NCBI GenBank assembly: GCA_011048855.1
Contig: DSCZ01000064.1
Coordinates: 1-7,336 of the forward strand
Reading direction: 5' to 3'
Source of the DNA: Desulfobacteraceae bacterium
Lineage (GTDB): Bacteria > Desulfobacterota > DSM-4660 > Desulfatiglandales > Desulfatiglandaceae
DNA: 7,336 nucleotides
In this document: piece after piece, positions 1-7,093 of the stretch
Numbering within the stretch: the stretch's first letter is position 1
Layout: each line of letters begins with the position of its first letter
Made by a program: the position numbers and the translations under genes
The notes under the pieces: model-generated
Told to the model about the DNA's origin: nothing
The model's input: only the letters and a program-made list of their open reading frames with translations
Databases searched by the model: none

Positions 1-2857
1 CAGAGAAAGCGTAACAGGAAAGCGGTTCGATCTTGTGAAATTGCATCAAATTGAATGTTTGGGTTTTGAATTCCTTAAACCCGTTTGTATCATTGGCATT
101 CCATTGAAAAAGCGTTTTTGCCAGATGATTTGGGCCAAACCCGTTGTCTTCAGTTTCTTCGTCCGGTCGAAGAACGGAATGGGGACCGTGTTCGTAGGCC
201 CTATCCAGAGCGTATTCGCGATAAATCAAGGAAAGGCTTTTACCGAATCTGTCGTTGAACAGCTCATCCATCGCTTTGCGGTAAAGCGTCCTGTACTGCG
301 ATGCGCTCAACCCGAACTTGTTCGCCGTCCGGATGCTCATGTATTCGAAAAGCTGATCCGTCCAGGCAAAACTGTTTCCACCATAGCGTTTTGAAACGTA
401 GGTGAAAAAATCCTGCTTGGTATAATGACGGGGCGATCTTGGATCATCGACCGCCTCATAGAGCCGTGCGTGTTCGTTCGGGCGGAGTATACGGGGGTGC
501 ACCGAGGGCCCTGTTACGGAACCTCCTGTGTTCTGGTAGGTCTGGCCGAGAGGGGTTGCCGTTCCCTCCAGATAAGCAGCCATAGATTTTCTCAGCTTCC
601 GCACGTCGTAACCATATTGTACTGCGTGGAAGAGTTCGTGTATGACGATATTCCCGAGTGAAACACCATAATCTGTGTTTAATTTAACAAATTGGTCATG
701 ATTAACGTACATCTGGCCCAGGGCGGACAATTCGTCGTCATCACGGAGGATGGTGCTGTAGGTTTCCTGGTCCTCGATATAGGTCCATGTGCCGTTTTCA
801 AATTCGATATAGCCGGCATGAAAATGCGAACCGTCCGGGTGGTTGCTGTCGATAAGATGACAAACCCGGGCAGGCGGTGAAAGCCGGGGGTCGATGTAAA
901 TCTTCGGAGACCTGAAGCCCGCCAGGGCCAGTGTCTCGCCGGCGTCCCACAATTCCGGCAGGATAATCGTCTTGACGTCATCTTCAGACATGTCGGTATG
1001 GTTCACCACGACCCATTCAAAGGTTTTCCAGTCCTGATCCGTGAGCCATGCCAGGGGTAAACGGGATGTGCCGGCGATTTCATAATCAGGCCCCTGTGCC
1101 CGGATGATGTTTATGGACGGGTCTTCCACCACACCTACCTTCCAGCCGCTTATCACACCCGAAAGCTCGACCCGGTAAACGCCGGCGTCGGCGTCGTAGG
1201 TTCCGAGCAAAGAATAGGAAGCCCCGTTGTTCAGCATCACCTTCAGCAGCAGCTTGCCGGGATCATCAACTGCCGAAGGCTCCAGGGGGATGGCAAGCGA
1301 AAAGGTCCCGTCCCCAAAGAGAGCATCATCGGCTGATGTCGTCAGGGTCATCACCTCGGAGACAAGTCGCTCCCCACCTAAGACAAGACCGGGGGCATCA
1401 GCGGACACAGTCATGATGATGGCCTCGCCGCCGTTGAGTCCTCCCGGAGGCGTCACCAGGGAGCTGCCGCCGGCACCGGATATGGTTTTCGCAGGGGTAT
1501 TGTCATCGTAGGAATAAACAAGAGAGTCTAGAATGTAGAGGGCTTCAGCCATACCGACCCTGCCGTCGCCATCCACATCAACGCCCGATGTGGCGTAATC
1601 ACTGCGGACATCTGAAGCTTCAAGGCCCGACAAAACCCGCAGGGCGAGAATGGCATCGTAAAGATCGATGAAAGTGTTGTCATTGATGTCTCCCAGGCGC
1701 GTCAGCAGCAGAAGGGGTAGCTGTACGGGCTCGGACCTGTCCTCGGTTGTCCCGTCACCAAGCTGGCTGTCAGCGTTATATCCCCAGGCCCAAACCGTTG
1801 CATCGCGTTTTCGGGCAAAGGTCTGCCAGTATCCCGCGGCAATGGTCGACACGTCCGCGAGTCCCTTGACCTGAACGGGCTGGCGGCTGTCCTCGGTTGT
1901 CCCGTCACCAAGCTGGCCGTCCCCGTTCCCTCCCCAGGTCTGGACCGTCCCGTCACGCTTCAGAGCGGCCGTGTGGTATCCCCCGGAATCAATGGCCATT
2001 ACGTCCGAAAGCCCCCCCACCTGGACGGGACGGGTGGAAACCAAGCCCGTCTCGGTGCCAAGCTGGCCGACATTGTTATATCCCCAGTCCCAAACCGTCC
2101 CATCACGCTTCAGGGCGACGGTGTGGTATTCCCCGGCAGCTAGGGCTGTGACATCGGAAAGTTCGCTCACGGGCACCGGTTCGGAGTTGCTCGTGGTCGT
2201 CCCATCTCCGAGTTGACCCACCTCATTATATCCCCAGGCCTGGACCGTGCCATCACGCTTCAGAGCCAGCGTATGATAATATCCCGCGGCGATTGCCGCA
2301 ACGTCCGTTAGCCCGATCACCTGTACAGGTTCGCTTACATCATCATCTGTACCGTCACCAAGCTGGCCGTCCACGTTCCCTCCCCAGGCCCAAACCGTCC
2401 CGTCACATTTCAGCACAACCGTGTGATATCCCCCCGCTGCGATTGCTGCAACGTCAGCAAGCCCTTCCACCTTGACCGGCTCATTTTTGTCCTCAAAGGT
2501 TCCGTCACCAAGCTGGCCGACATTGTTTCGTCCCCAGGCCCAGACAGTACCATCATCCTTAAGCGCGATCGAGTGAGATCCCCCCACGCCGATGGCCGAT
2601 ACGTCCGAAAGCCCTACCACCGGCACGGGCTCGGACCTATTCAGGGTCGTCCCATCGCCCAGCTGGCCGAAGCAGTTATATCCCCAGGCCCAGACCATCC
2701 CGTCACGCTTCAGGGCAGCCGTATGAAGCGCTCCCGACGCAATCTGTACCCTGGCCCGGGCGGTGTTTCCGCACATGAGAACCAGCATGCTTATAATCAT
2801 CACCGCAAAAATGAATCGGTTGATTACACCCGTCGGATATGTCCATAATTGAGTCAT
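1..2857 (-). CDS. Secreted RCC1-propeller / dockerin / HExxH metalloprotease-like protein (C-terminus beyond window)
   Basis: Translation from 2857 is open without a stop to the left edge, giving 952 complete residues. Residues 1-35 form a signal peptide: hydrophobic [15 protein letters not shown], then an ARA-like cleavage region. Residues 36-380 are RCC1 repeats (WAWGYNxxGQLGDGT, AAGxYHTxAL), predicted to form a seven-bladed propeller. Residues 390-401 and 427-438 are two 12-residue calcium loops (D390, N392, N394, D401; D427, D429, D431, E438), each followed by an LYDAILAL or EALYILDSL helix, as in dockerins. After a beta-rich stretch comes HELFH at 740-744, with E764 in YLEGTAT as the likely third zinc ligand, a gluzincin pattern resembling MXAN_6640-type putative metalloproteases. 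The protein is probably exported; its substrate is unknown. A GTG at 2860, 8 nt after AGAAAGG, is an equally possible start. It could be a binding or adhesion protein with a degenerate protease, but the zinc ligands look intact. Confidence 0.9.
1718..2710 (-). repeat. Tandem 150-bp RCC1-coding repeats, six full units plus a partial seventh
   Basis: Within the large minus-strand gene the units begin at 2710, 2560, 2410, 2260, 2110, 1960 and 1810. Each full unit is exactly 50 codons, with no indel between units. Every unit opens with a K-x-D-x-x-V-like stretch, then W/TWG, then GQLG or SQLG, and ends in an AAGxxxT-like stretch. The seventh unit stops after about 31 residues, where the dockerin linker begins. 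The missing half-unit lies before the first repeat ([13 protein letters not shown], around residues 37-49), so the set adds up to seven blades. DNA similarity between units is visible, for example recurrent tccccaggcccaaaccgtcc on the plus strand. Confidence 0.92.
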
Positions 2858-2890
2858 CACTGCAGGAGCCTTTCTGTTGGTTTTAGTCTT

Positions 2891-3100
2891 TTAATGGGGG
2901 GTTGTGATTGAAAATCCTTCAGCCTGTGCCAACAAGATTGAGTTGGCGGGAATCGCCCAAACGAACCATTCCGTTGTCGTTTCGGGGACCAACACCGAAC
3001 CCCGGTTGAGAAAATTCAACCGATCATCATCGGACCGGAATATCTTCCTTCTTTCGACTCCGCTGATGATCACATAACGGGCGGCCTCAGGCGCGGAGGG
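2891..3100 (-). pseudogene. Remnant of a Y1 (IS200/REP-associated) tyrosine transposase
   Basis: The minus-strand frame reads APEAARYVIISGVERRKIFR, then SDDDRLNFLNRGSVLVPETT and TEWFVWAIP. This matches the N-terminal half of Y1_Tnp / TnpA-REP transposases, whose usual pattern is an APG-HHV-RGIERR-IF-DD-DR-F-RL core followed by WALIPNHxHLLL. Here the HxH catalytic motif is gone: the frame reads WAIPANSILLAQ and ends at a stop at 2891. No catalytic Tyr region follows, and an in-frame TAA lies just upstream, near 3107. The family normally runs to roughly 150-300 residues, so this is a truncated, inactive fragment. It lies between the start of the large secreted-protein gene and the broken toxin. 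Family assignment is by motif recognition only. Confidence 0.75.
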
Positions 3101-3120
3101 AACCGATTAGCCTGAAGGCC
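3083..3120. repeat. Imperfect inverted repeat at the 5' side of the transposase remnant
   Basis: GGCCTCAGGC (3083-3092) pairs with GCCTGAAGGCC (3110-3120): a 10-bp stem with one bulged A and a 17-nt loop. It sits where the first codons of the Y1 transposase remnant would be. IS200/IS605 and REP elements are recognised through such subterminal hairpins, so it may be an element end, but no second copy was found in the window. Confidence 0.5.
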
Positions 3121-3137: not shown

Positions 3138-3255
3138 TTATTGAACGAATCTATCAAGTAAAATATCCTCGACATTTTGTCTCGAATCTATGACTGATAG
3201 AACAAAAATCTCGTTGCGCAACTTTCGCCCATGCGACTTGATATTCCTGGTTCAT
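3138..3255 (-). pseudogene. Truncated, frameshifted ParE/RelE-type toxin remnant
   Basis: An ATG at 3255-3253 overlaps the TGA (3254-3252) of the upstream antitoxin in an ATGA junction, the usual coupling for a TA toxin. The frame reads MNQEYQVAWAKVAQRDF, resembling the first strand and helix of ParE/RelE-superfamily toxins (xYxVxWxxxAxRDL). It then loses similarity and stops at 3154. Continuing in the next frame, which ends at 3138, gives LSVIDSRQNVEDILLDRF, which resembles the following helices (II-YI----NP--A---LDRF). The frame change falls near the T/A-rich stretch encoding RDF. About 40 residues in two frames remain of a family that usually has 85-105, so the toxin is dead. Short similarity makes the family call moderate. 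Confidence 0.6.
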
Positions 3256-3533
3256 TTACGGGTGGCTTTCAATTCATTTTCAATTTCGGTGAATACATCT
3301 TCCTGGGATTTCATTCGTCCTTCCCTAATATCGGTTTCGCCCTCAGAGATAAGTTTTAAGATTCCCATAGCATTGCGCATATTTTCATAGCTTTTCGGAT
3401 CTTGTAATATGGCTCTTGGTTCGCCATTTTGCGTTATAATAACAGGCCGATGCGTTTCATTAATTTGATTTAGCAAATCTGCCGCACGAGACTTCAAATA
3501 GGTTACCGGTTTAATATCACTCGTAATATTCAT
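3252..3533 (-). CDS. Phd/YefM-family antitoxin (orphan, partner broken)
   Basis: This 93-residue protein begins MNITSDIKPVTYLKSRAADL and continues LNQINETHRPVIITQNGEPR and AILQDPKSYENM. That is the Phd/YefM fold: an N-terminal DNA-binding half (about 1-50) in which the THRPVIITQNGEPRAIL segment is characteristic, then an acidic, flexible toxin-binding tail (about 55-93). The start at 3533 is chosen because GGAGG lies 7 nt upstream in GGAGGAAATAATATG; longer in-frame versions would begin inside the promoter. Its stop overlaps the start of a ParE/RelE-like remnant, so it was the first gene of a TA operon whose toxin is now lost. It probably autorepresses the promoter just upstream. A retained antitoxin can still neutralise homologous toxins encoded elsewhere, but that is inference. 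Confidence 0.88.
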   Translation of the reverse strand: MNITSDIKPVTYLKSRAADLLNQINETHRPVIITQNGEPRAILQDPKSYENMRNAMGILKLISEGETDIREGRMKSQEDVFTEIENELKATRK

Positions 3534-3554
3534 ATTATTTCCTCCAGTCCGTAA

Positions 3555-3935: not shown

Positions 3936-4184
3936 ATGCAGACCGTTAATATCCACGAGGCAAAAACACATCTATCGAGGCTGGTGGCCGAGGCTGCCAA
4001 GGGAAATGCTTTCATCATTGCCAAGGCCGGCAAGCCCATGGTCAAGGTTTTACCGCTTTCCGAGGAGAAACTGGATACCGCTGGGAAGCTGGGGTTTATG
4101 TCGGGTGAAATTGCGGTTCCGGATGATTTTGATTCTCTTGGGGCAAAGGAAATCTCTGCCCTGTTCGAAGGAAAGTCATCGTGA
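3936..4184 (+). CDS. Phd/YefM-type antitoxin of a VapC toxin
   Basis: This 82-residue protein starts MQTVNIHEAKTHLSRLVAEA and continues AKGNAFIIAKAGKPMVKVLP. That is the standard Phd/YefM N-terminal domain (beta strand, NIHEAKTHLSRLV helix, IIAKAGKPxxxLxPL hairpin). The C-terminal tail (KLGFMSGEIAVPDDFD, then ISALFEG) is the VapC-binding segment common in antitoxins paired with PIN toxins. GAGG lies 6 nt before the ATG. The stop codon overlaps the GTG start of the toxin gene, so the two are translationally coupled. It neutralises the VapC toxin by binding at its active site and, with it, probably represses the promoter through the palindrome at 3903-3919. Some annotation schemes would call it VapB because of its partner, although its fold is Phd/YefM. 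Confidence 0.92.
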   Translation: MQTVNIHEAKTHLSRLVAEAAKGNAFIIAKAGKPMVKVLPLSEEKLDTAGKLGFMSGEIAVPDDFDSLGAKEISALFEGKSS

Positions 4185-4567
4185 AACTGCTCCTGGATAC
4201 GCATATTGTCCTGTGGGCTGCAGGTCACCCGGAAAGACTCTCCGAATCAGCCCGAACGCTCCTGACGACACCTGAGAACATTTTGTTTTTCAGCGTGGCC
4301 AGCATATGGGAGATTATTATCAAGCGCGGGCTCGGGCGCGAGGACTTCAAGGTGGATCCACGACGCTTGAGAAAGATGCTGATCACGCATGGTTACTCCG
4401 AGTTGGCTGTTGGCGCAGAACATGTCCTTGCCATCGAAGCACTCCCTCCGATTCACAAAGACCCGTTTGATCGCCTGTTGCTGGCCCAGGCCCGAACAGA
4501 AGGGATACTTCTCCTCACAGTTGACGCATCCGTTTCCCAATATAAGGAATCCGTGCTGACCGTTTAA
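4181..4567 (+). CDS. vapC: VapC-type PIN-domain ribonuclease toxin
   Basis: This 128-residue protein starts at GTG 4181 within a GTGA overlap with the antitoxin stop. It begins MKLLLDTHIVLWAAG and contains SVASIWEIIIKRGLG, HKDPFDRLLLAQA and LLTVDASVSQY. The PIN-domain acidic residues are all in place: D6, E44, D97 and D115. Length and motifs match intact VapC proteins, which are Mg2+-dependent endoribonucleases that cleave tRNA or rRNA and stop growth when free of antitoxin. The target RNA cannot be read from sequence. The gene ends 56 bp before the last recognisable codon of the kinase remnant on the opposite strand, so the cassette lies against the truncated end of that gene. No terminator is evident after the stop. 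Confidence 0.93.
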   Translation: MKLLLDTHIVLWAAGHPERLSESARTLLTTPENILFFSVASIWEIIIKRGLGREDFKVDPRRLRKMLITHGYSELAVGAEHVLAIEALPPIHKDPFDRLLLAQARTEGILLLTVDASVSQYKESVLTV

Positions 4568-4622
4568 TCCGGTACGAACATCCTTCATCCAATCGGTCAC
4601 GACCTGTCTGCGTGCGGACAAG

Positions 4623-6510
4623 GCCGGTTTCGATGCTTACCTTTCCGGTTCCGCCGATGGCGTCCCGGGCGTTAACCAGGAGATTGGCCAGGATCTGGTC
4701 GAGTTGTGAGGGGTCCATGAACACCGGCATCCGTCTCGGCCCTGGCTGCCAGGACAAATTGATATCTTCCCCGATGAGCCGGCGCAACATCTTGAGCATA
4801 CCCTCCACGCTTTCATTCAGATCCAAAACATCAGGTCGGATGTTCTGTTTTCTTGCAAAGGCCAGCAGTTGCCGGGTGATGTCTGTGGACCGGCGGGCTG
4901 CATCAAGAATCTCCTTCAGATCCGCATGCAGGGGATCCTCCGGGGGAACCCCGTCCAGAGCCAGTTCCGCATTACCCATGATGACGCCCAGCATGTTATT
5001 GATATCGTGGGCCACGCCCCCGGCCAGACGTGCCACGGACTCCATCTTCTGGGCCTGAGTCAGTTGCTCGTGCAATTTCCGGTTTTCCTTCTCGGCCCGT
5101 TTTCGCTCTGTGATGTCGCGCATGCTCCCGATGTTTTTGGCGGTATCCGGATGAACCCGGTGAAATTTTACGCATATATCCTGCCAGCCGACAGCAACCA
5201 GCACCTTTCCGGAAGCATCAACGATAGCGCTTCCGATATTGGAGAAACTGTAAAAATCTTCCATCATGGTTTGCATCGCTTCCGGATCGATAATATCGGC
5301 AAGATTCAGCGCGCCGATATCGCCATCGGGTTCGAGGATCGCGTTAAGTTTTTTTCTGACCGTTGCTTCGGTCTCGCGCACTGGGCGGGCGGGTCGTCCC
5401 TTACTTGCACATCATCGGAGGACAGCGCCGCTTGTGCACAGATTGGAATTTCCCCGGCCCGCAGCCGCTCGTCCATGGGTTCAAAACCGCCGTTAAACCC
5501 CGTATGGAAAAACGGTTCCCTGGGCCGGCCGTCCTCCATCAGAACGATCCAGACGTTGTAATACCCTTGATTTTCCACCAGAAGGCGGCAGGCTTCATCC
5601 AGGAGACGGATCGGGTTTTTTTCGCGGACGATGAGCTGATTGACATTGCGGATGGCCGCCAGGATACGGTTCCGGTGGTCCAGGATTTCCTGCAATTCTG
5701 CGCGGCGGCGATTCAAGCGGGCCAGCACGACGCCCGCAAGCACGGCAACCGCTATGTAAACGAAGCGCATGAAGACCTCGTGCGAACTTGCCCCATGCAC
5801 CGCGATACCCCAGAAGGTTTGCCCCTCGTGCGGAAAGGCGACGTAATGCACAAGGGCGTCCAGCATCCAAAGCAGCAATCCGAAAAGCGCGGCGCCGGCA
5901 CAGATGGCCGTGGTGTCACGCTGGGCCGGGCGAAGGGGCAGACCGAAGAAGCGACGAACGGCGCCCAGGCTGAGTGCCACATAAGCCGCCGTCAGCAGGA
6001 TGTAGGCCGTCACCACGTGCTTGATCGCCACCGTCTGCAGCCAGGCCGAACTTACGTGGTCCCAGGAAATTTCGGGGTTCCAGGGAGGCGGATTCAACGA
6101 CACCAGCCATCGAAACACCACCAGAAAGCCCAGCTCAATGACGATGCGAAACGGAACCTCCACAGCGAACGAGGAAACATACCAGGGATGGCCTTCGACC
6201 CGGCGCTCGGCACACCAGCCGTGCCAGACGATCCATAACGTGAATACCGGTACCGAATAAAGAACCCCCAGCCGTCACCCTGCCACAGCCACCACATCGT
6301 TTGACACCCGCCCGCCAGGGCTGACAGAAGGCCGTAGCGCCAGCCCCAGGCCAACGCAACCACCAGCGGAAAGAACAACCCCGCCAGAATGCTGATTTTG
6401 AAGGTTGCACCTTCCATGAATTCGATATCCAGGAAATTGACGGCGAAGCCGATCAACCCGAATGCGACCGCAACGGCCACCCGTTGGGCTTTCATCTCAG
6501 GGGCTCTCAT
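4623..6510 (-). pseudogene. Decayed membrane sensor histidine kinase (GAF-PocR-PAS-HisKA, ATPase truncated)
   Basis: Three minus-strand frames together form a kinase. Frame 1 (6510 to about 6270) and frame 2 (about 6269-5380) give about eight membrane segments, from VAVAVAFGLIGFAVNFLDI to VFMRFVYIAVAVLAGVVLA. A GAF domain follows (RNRILAAIRNVNQLIV, NVWIVLMEDGRP, FEPMDERLRAGEIPICAQ). Frame 3 (5381-4623) opens with a PocR domain (LADIIDPEAMQTMMEDFY, VGWQDICVKFHRVHP). This jumps in frame to a PAS/PAC end (RDITERKRAEKENRKL), then HisKA (RLAGGVAHDINNMLG, His codon at 5009-5007) and the ATPase N-box (NLLVNARDAIG). Similarity ends near 4625, without the D-box and G-boxes, so it cannot be a working kinase. 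The open frame itself runs on to 4515, inside vapC. The ATG at 6510 has GGAGG 6 nt upstream. Confidence 0.85.
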
Positions 6511-6569
6511 GACCTGCCTCCGTTTCCCGGAATCATCTTTCCGTTGTTTGTAGGGGAGGTGTGATTCCA

Positions 6570-6582
6570 CTTTGTCCTCCTT
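6570..6582 (-). promoter_or_regulatory. Alternative ribosome site and GTG start for the kinase remnant
   Basis: AAGGAGG (6582-6576) is followed after 5 nt by an in-frame GTG (6570), 20 codons upstream of the ATG at 6510. Starting here would add a basic tail (MESHLPYKQRKDDSGKRR). Both starts have good ribosome sites. The 6510 start keeps the N-terminus short before the first membrane segment and is preferred, without certainty. Confidence 0.4.
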
Positions 6583-6688
6583 GCCCAACGTTCAGGATAT
6601 GCTGCAACCCGGCTTGGCAAAAAACCTGTTTAACGATCTCTTCAGCGGGCACCGCTTTTTGTGCTCTGATGGAAGAGCATCGTTGGAA

Positions 6689-7093
6689 TTATTCCGCATT
6701 GTGAATAATAATTTTTATGTACTTCGAAAACAGCTCGAAATCTTTGTCCGTAGTAAAAATTGAAAGTTTGTTTCTGTTGGCCATGGCGCAAATTAAAAAA
6801 TCAGTATTCGAACCTTGGATACCTTTTGAGCGGCAACGATTAAAATACTTCGCTGCTGTAACATAATCCTCGGTGATGGCTGGGAGATCGGGAAAACTTT
6901 CAAGATGTCTTTGAAGTTTTTTGAACTGAGATTCACTGCGAATGCCAGACAGGATTTCCTGCCGTATGGGTCCAATCATTTGTACGCGATGATCCTCAAT
7001 CATGCGCCGGAATTCTTGGACTGTCGTATTGGATTCCAGCTTGTCACGCCTTAATGCCAGGGACCATACACTGGTATCAACGATGACCTTCAT
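6689..7093 (-). CDS. vapC: VapC-type PIN-domain ribonuclease toxin
   Basis: This 134-residue protein begins MKVIVDTSVWSLALRRDKLE and contains IGPIRQEILSGIRSESQF, GSNTDFLICAMANRN and LSIFTTDKDFELFSKY. The four conserved PIN acids are present as D6, E46, D98 and D116, with D118 beside the last. It belongs to a different VapC subgroup from the plus-strand toxin (DTSVW rather than DTHIVLW), so the two are not recent copies. The ATG at 7093 overlaps the TGA of the upstream antitoxin in an ATGA junction. It is predicted to be a Mg2+-dependent RNase inhibiting translation; its RNA target is unknown. The stop codon lies inside an AT-rich inverted repeat (6688-6709). The gene is AT-richer than the kinase remnant beside it, consistent with separate acquisition. 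Confidence 0.93.
   Translation of the reverse strand: MKVIVDTSVWSLALRRDKLESNTTVQEFRRMIEDHRVQMIGPIRQEILSGIRSESQFKKLQRHLESFPDLPAITEDYVTAAKYFNRCRSKGIQGSNTDFLICAMANRNKLSIFTTDKDFELFSKYIKIIIHNAE

Follow-up and report, generated by a model that had tools for sequence, protein, structure and literature searches.

The 7,336-nucleotide stretch of DNA analysed in this study (hereafter the window; contig DSCZ01000064.1 of assembly GCA_011048855.1, from a Desulfobacteraceae bacterium) carries a gene for a predicted secreted protein, in which an RCC1 propeller and a dockerin precede a metalloprotease-like core. This raises the question of which partner the dockerin of such an enzyme plugs into, and what it does for the enzyme. 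From the protein family of the core and a survey of 389 genomes, all from the order of the nearest relative with a genome examined (G001), we consider it probable, though not assured, that the gene encodes a surface zinc metalloprotease held by docking of its dockerin onto a small single-cohesin protein of the same cell. The candidate for this partner, a conserved small cohesin family which tracks dockerins across the order and bears on the role of dockerins outside cellulosomes, is in our view a more interesting result than the three-part protein itself.

Dockerin and N-terminal modules of the protease family

Against PF00404 the dockerin of the window protein reaches 16.1 bits (E 0.013) and stays under the gathering cut-off of 22.9, a score that is a search threshold and no trait of the dockerin fold; two further members of the family, P0004 and P0005, lie above this cut-off at 23.8 and 32.4 bits. 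An independent profile, built from six dockerins which all come from outside the protease family, finds residues 390–446 with 52.8 bits, compared to a top score of 9.7 among 2000 shuffled versions of the protein (numbering takes the alternative GTG start as residue 1, so that the numbers of the original prediction are one lower). Both calcium loops which that prediction had noticed, D391-N393-N395-D399-D402 and D428-D430-D432-G436-E439, are intact, giving the two duplicated EF-hand-like loops with D/N/D...D/E spacing of a type I dockerin. Because of these loops and the clade profile, and despite the sub-threshold Pfam score, we assign the domain, by its sequence, as a dockerin.

What stands ahead of the shared core varies over the family, which we compared in an alignment of 16 sequences (A1: the window protein, P0003–P0015, L007 and L008). 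A dockerin is found in 4 of the 16, namely in the window protein after the RCC1 propeller, in P0004 and P0005 after a leader, and in P0003, whose gene model lacks a leader. Both dockerin profiles used here score these same four and no others, leaving 11 sequences without dockerin and P0006, which is truncated at its N-terminal part. Five of the 16 (P0007–P0011) start with a lipobox-like leader and a Gly-rich stretch, both recognized by eye, and the independent profile finds no dockerin above 0 bits in them. Elsewhere other modules precede the core, such as FnIII-like repeats (by eye) in L010 and a PASTA domain in one A1 member. The family thus shows a dockerin tag where sister proteins seem to be lipid-anchored, which argues that the dockerin holds or sorts the enzyme, and it may take over the job of an anchor. 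The same difference is visible between two genomes, few as these are. G001, whose core is 68% identical to that of the window, holds the dockerin form of the protease together with four dockerins and one cohesin of the family described below. G002 encodes the core twice; one copy follows a lipobox-like leader (L005), the other is truncated by the contig start (L002), and profile searches of this genome found neither dockerin nor cohesin.

A small cohesin family as candidate partner

A cohesin scan was run on G001, a metagenome-assembled genome of unknown completeness, and PF00963 returned a single match, a protein of 182 residues (34.8 bits, cut-off 24.1) that, judged by eye, starts with a leader and ends in a short polar tail. 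Its gene adjoins gspN and gspC and is divergent from gspF-G-H-I-J-K-L. These names were given by eye and gene order; an NCBIfam match (138.9 bits, cut-off 50) confirmed gspN, and relatives in the stretches L052, L067 and L077 confirmed gspC, gspF and gspK. On the same contig as the cohesin lies a dockerin protein, and beside the protease gene of G001 lies a C10 peptidase gene with a dockerin-like stretch at its end, which served as a seed of the dockerin profiles and is absent from the PF00404 matches. The protease had originally been placed outside any visible cellulosome context; this holds for the window, where no cellulosome gene is present, but in G001 a small cohesin sits beside type II secretion genes. 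The genome of the window organism would be expected to encode this cohesin as well.

From a PF00963 scan of the order, 19 further small single-frame cohesin regions were picked, 18 of which match the G001 cohesin by phmmer with E 1.3e-21 or better, L063 being the exception. Together with the G001 cohesin these 18 make up the 19 rows of alignment A3. Searched against 5.8 billion proteins, A3 yielded 444 matches among 6980 candidates, the names among the best 120 of them being 'hypothetical', 'cohesin domain-containing' and 'cellulosome anchoring protein cohesin region'; Desulfonema limicola and Desulfatibacillum aliphaticivorans are among the organisms with A3 matches. Within the order, 35 of the 389 genomes have an A3 match of E 1e-10 or better (G681 weakly, at 4e-11), and 68 have a match to the dockerin profile A2 of E 1e-3 or better, counted over the best 16 matches per genome. 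Dockerins occur in 34 of the 35 A3 genomes, compared to 34 of the 354 genomes without A3 (Fisher p 1e-28, uncorrected for kinship), a comparison in which A2, seeded from A3 genomes and the protease family, may favour A3 genomes somewhat. The PF00963 scan found a cohesin in at least 60 of the 389 genomes, a lower bound since it missed the cohesin of G001 itself. A set of 29 genomes matches PF00963 but not A3, and 13 of them have dockerins; compared to the 34 of 35 above, A3 therefore seems more tightly tied to dockerins than cohesins in general.

These counts also bear on a simpler explanation, in which the dockerin has no cohesin to bind, being a calcium-stabilized spacer or a leftover module, and the protein is a free secreted protease. 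Its internal position and the sub-threshold Pfam score would fit such a module, as would the 11 of 16 aligned sequences that do without it (P0006 being truncated there), but neither calcium loop is damaged, three relatives of the window protein have retained the dockerin, and nearly every genome with an A3 cohesin has dockerins. We regard this explanation as improbable.

Instead of a single cohesin, the dockerin could dock the protease into a multi-cohesin scaffold, as part of a cellulosome-like or adhesion complex. At least 10 cohesin matches are present in 9 of the 389 genomes, some of them in long frames, and in L043, L030 and L020, from other genomes of the order, cohesin and dockerin stretches share one long frame, which could form a chain-forming linker. 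As described in the accessible text of PMC8542988, Ca. Stygibacter (Cloacimonadota) has S8 and C25 peptidases tagged with dockerins, along with a proposed scaffoldin, and sulfate-reducing partners of anaerobic methanotrophic archaea (ANME) are reported to have cohesin/dockerin proteins, discussed as adhesins in the part of PMC10553843 available to us. In G001, by contrast, the small cohesin is the sole cohesin match, within a genome of unknown completeness, and no scaffold gene is seen within the window. A scaffold is unlikely in our view, and docking onto the small single cohesin remains the reading which we prefer.

The dockerin proteins of A3 genomes were sampled in 20 regions around dockerin matches from 12 genomes, containing 23 dockerin frames; 17 of these frames, with L055 and L057, gave 19 proteins for a Pfam scan. 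Domains above cut-off include S8 (L082), C10 (L090) and M12 (L092) peptidases, a serpin (L090), a cyclophilin (L096), beta-helices (L083, L094) and propellers (L080, L087), and L052 has an M10 peptidase with dockerin close to the cohesin gene. L080, which joins a propeller, a slightly sub-threshold C13 peptidase match (22.5 vs 22.8) and a dockerin, repeats the theme of the window protein in other folds. The window dockerin is therefore unusual in its position, while protease cargo is not unusual. As an observation in its own right, the C10 peptidase and the adjacent serpin of L090 (1151–3550 and 3869–5917) are both dockerin-tagged, the serpin being a candidate inhibitor.

Gene neighbourhoods and type II secretion

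Around the 35 A3 genes, stretches of 3–13 kb were analysed. Clear type II secretion genes are present in 5 of the 35. In L044 the small single-cohesin gene occurs with gspN, gspC and gspF–L and lies beside gspN/gspC. L051 has gspD (507.9 bits vs 351) and gspE (701.6 vs 630), followed by the cohesin gene on the same strand, and L052 has gspC (158 bits vs 150) near it. In L067 the cohesin gene is followed by gspF-G-H-I-J on one strand, with a gspF that at 410.6 bits is slightly short of its cut-off of 424 and beats the pilus models, and in L077 gspG–K are present and divergent, gspK being slightly short of its cut-off (122 bits vs 130). Since L044 prompted the idea, the count without it reads 4 of 34. 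By chance 0.19 stretches would be expected, assuming that each genome has a single type II cluster of 14 kb. Dockerin genes are found in 7 of the 35 (L044, L052, L053, L055, L057, L071, L078), where 0.73 are expected from the counted matches (best 16 per genome; P 6e-6) and 3.1 from first-look candidates (P 0.027), all of these chance estimates resting on assumptions. With clear linkage in 5 of 35 stretches, type II linkage as a general rule for A3 cohesins is ruled out.

The model which we favour is the following. The window protein would be exported by the Sec pathway to the cell surface, where its dockerin, folded around calcium, would plug into the small single-cohesin protein of the same cell. 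Docking would serve for anchoring or sorting, a role that in other members of the family probably falls to a lipid anchor, as judged by eye from the leaders. The RCC1 propeller would be an accessory head gained in this lineage, which probably binds substrate or surface, and one small cohesin socket would serve many dockerin plugs.

Several observations weigh against this model. The window dockerin is internal, while 16 of the 23 dockerin frames carry theirs at most 3 residues from the C-terminus. One genome, G599, has an A3 cohesin and no dockerin among its candidates, 22 of 22 of which were scored, and conversely 34 genomes have dockerins without A3, 13 of them with some other cohesin match. 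Co-occurrence of A3 and dockerins can reflect shared ancestry. In four A3 stretches (L057, L058, L071, L072) neighbouring genes score better as type IV pilus PilQ/PilB, the PilQ of L057 above cut-off and the PilB of L058, L071 and L072 under it, and in 26 of the 35 stretches, several of which are short contigs, neither a type II nor a pilus gene is in view. Finally, solved structures compared with the core by sequence gave matches at chance level alone (E 0.67 and 0.79).

A farther-reaching version, which we put forward tentatively and hold to be rather doubtful, is that order-wide the dockerin acts as a type II sorting or retention tag, read by a dedicated soluble single-cohesin adaptor that in some genomes is encoded within the system itself (its gene follows gspE in L051, precedes gspF in L067 and adjoins gspN/gspC in L044). 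Many unrelated cargos, proteases prominent among them, would then pass through the type II system and be handled via one socket, and the window protein would be a cargo tagged internally where relatives carry an N-terminal lipid anchor. If A3 cohesins and dockerins bind, this would offer a testable answer, in one lineage, to the recognition or surface retention of type II cargo, which the accessible text of PMC7949064 calls elusive.

Protease core and RCC1 propeller

With residues 455–953 as query, 7991 candidates were scored and 13 relatives besides the window's own entry were obtained, 70% to 37% identical. The HELFH motif and the downstream Glu in YLEGTAT, pointed out in the original prediction, are located at residues 741–745 and 765, and none of H741, E742, H745 and E765 varies across the 16 A1 sequences, some of which are just 26% identical to the window protein. 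The motif is therefore not a chance occurrence, and the core has the HExxH with conserved downstream Glu of a gluzincin; thermolysin has the same 20-residue spacing to its Glu ligand. Zinc binding by these residues and proteolysis by the core would follow from this pattern.

The closest model is NF045524 (MXAN_6640_HExxH), which the window protein matches with E 2.8e-6 and 27.3 bits, far under the curated cut-off of 140 bits, so we regard its core as a distant MXAN_6640 relative outside the curated family. All 16 A1 members match this model weakly at E up to 0.1 (best E 1.9e-8). No paper came up in a literature search for the name MXAN_6640. Pfam gave no match at E up to 0.1 in window 2–1540 on the minus strand. 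Known Pfam peptidase families were rejected for the core, none of them passing its cut-off among A1 members. DUF5700, a putative zinc peptidase, matched a single family member at E 0.14. NCBIfam flagellinolysin matched 6 of 16 with a best E of 7e-4, far below cut-off in the members scored (14.5–19.1 bits vs 205 in the three matching of four members shown).

It could be argued that the core is a binding or structural protein which retains HExxH and is no active protease, given that even its closest model is named merely 'putative metalloprotease' and matches so far below threshold. Invariance of both histidines, the glutamate between them and the downstream glutamate down to 26% identity speaks against it, and we judge an inactive core to be improbable. 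The protease family is small and mainly found in sulfate-reducer-type bacteria. Its core is rare, with matches in 7 of the 389 genomes, some of them partial, and in 1 of 395 sampled phylum-wide. In one of the genomes, G408, the sole core piece found is a short fragment (L006, 1486–2058, minus strand; 69% identical) which contains a TGA in frame and seems to be a decayed copy.

PF00415 matches the window protein in seven stretches (285.8 bits, cut-off 21.7), which fit a complete propeller, as had been read from the sequence beforehand. RCC1 is present in 1 of the 16 aligned sequences, P0003 being undecided and P0006 truncated at the start, and is thereby ruled out as a family trait or key to function. 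P0003, whose gene model has no leader and starts at what appears to be the end of an RCC1 repeat, may be a second RCC1 member of the family. The DNA of the propeller has 61% G+C, that of the core 53%, which supports later addition of RCC1 weakly, because RCC1 codons are probably G+C-rich anyway. Among the 119 RCC1 relatives listed (of 2888 matches, the window's own excluded), the HExxH string is absent. Of the original picture, in which propeller, dockerin and protease form one combination, the secreted dockerin-bearing candidate for a gluzincin-like protease stands, while the propeller is no conserved part of it. As a three-part combination, the protein is thus a local variant, in which a propeller has been added to a dockerin protease of known style.

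Relation to known systems

Modules outside cellulosomes are reportedly the subject of Peer et al. (2009). ANME carry cohesin/dockerin proteins, and the mere presence of non-cellulosomal dockerins is said to leave implications that are not clear, according to the portion of PMC9012536 at hand. The combination in the window protein had been taken as undescribed, but its pieces are known, as seen from dockerin S8/C25 peptidases, Cthe_0258, P0049 and L080. Among the closest known systems are the Cloacimonadota peptidases, which like the window protein combine signal peptide, dockerin and peptidase outside classic clostridial cellulosomes. In the accessible text of PMC8542988 their dockerins are C-terminal and their partner is a scaffoldin of 3,755 residues with tandem cohesins, whereas the window dockerin is internal and its candidate partner is the 182-residue single cohesin of G001. 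In the excerpt of PMC6083626 available, the cellulosomal table of Clostridium thermocellum lists serpins and Cthe_0258 with five RCC1 repeats; the latter shares these repeats with the window protein, but belongs to a cellulosome host and has no peptidase module in its table row. RCC1 is also fused to a peptidase in P0018, P0022 and P0049, which are subtilase-type (S8), unlike the window protein; P0049 is additionally annotated with a dockerin, which scores weakly with the clade dockerin profile. A further close system is the putative metalloproteases of NF045524, which align with the HExxH region in 16 of 16 family members, the window protein staying under the curated cut-off.

The cohesin/dockerin adhesins of the sulfate-reducing ANME partners share these modules with the bacteria studied here, and the term 'type II secretion' does not occur in the main text of PMC10553843, as far as accessible. 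Surface tags on enzymes exported by the type II system are known from GspN-dependent surface lipoproteins (PMC12802150, in part) and from GlyGly-CTERM/rhombosortase, which retains type II effectors at the surface (portions of PMC6219818 and PMC13393428), but these are lipid or processed C-terminal anchors and not a protein plug and socket. A description of a cohesin–type II secretion link was not found in the literature searched, subscription journals being mostly outside reach; PMC5817068, in the text seen, mentions cohesin and type II secretion in unrelated passages.

Gene layout and neighbouring genes

One open frame holds all parts of the protein, as predicted originally with the strand unstated; it lies on the minus strand and runs from its ATG for 952 codons without a stop, or 953 from the alternative GTG (Table 1). 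The leader, also seen in the earlier reading, shows by eye a hydrophobic run ahead of its cleavage site, as for Sec-type export. The frame is still open at the left window edge and the C-terminus is thus missing from the window. Beyond the window-edge position, P0003, P0004 and P0007–P0011 extend by 355–383 residues, P0003 and P0004 running 368 residues further, and this extension contains a TIG domain in P0003, P0004, P0005 and P0007.

Table 1 Parts of the protease gene and their positions in the window
Feature	Position	Strand	Basis
Whole gene to window edge	2..2857	-	ATG 2857, alternative GTG 2860; open frame
Putative signal peptide, residues 2–36, signal peptidase I-type site between ARA and RV	2753..2857	-	by eye
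RCC1 seven-repeat propeller, about residues 37–386	1703..2752	-	PF25390 E 3.5e-106; PF00415 E 1e-86, 7 stretches
Dockerin, residues 390–446, two calcium loops	1523..1693	-	PF00404 E 0.013, sub-threshold; independent clade profile 52.8 bits
Conserved unnamed region (GxGGSSLxTPxGGLNGG...), about residues 455–605	1046..1498	-	alignment A1; borders by eye
Metalloprotease-like core, distant MXAN_6640 relative, about residues 606–953	2..1045	-	NF045524 E 2.8e-6; border by eye
HELFH, residues 741–745; zinc-ligand candidates H741 and H745, candidate base E742	626..640	-	H, E, H invariant 16/16
E765 of YLEGTA, candidate third zinc ligand, 20 residues after H745	566..568	-	invariant 16/16

Directly upstream of the protease gene, window 2880–3120 on the minus strand reads ARYVIISGVERRKIF..., which may be the remnant of an IS200-type transposase. 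Further along, at 4515–6588 on the minus strand, a sensor histidine kinase with 5TM-LYT-like, PocR and HisKA matches is spread over three overlapping pieces in three frames, its ATPase end being cut off, as in a decayed gene or through assembly errors. Three toxin-antitoxin pieces lie within 4 kb of each other: a Phd/YefM antitoxin on its own, with a very short frame after it (3252–3542, minus strand), an antitoxin with its PIN-toxin partner (3936–4567, plus strand) and a further PIN toxin (6689–7093, minus strand).

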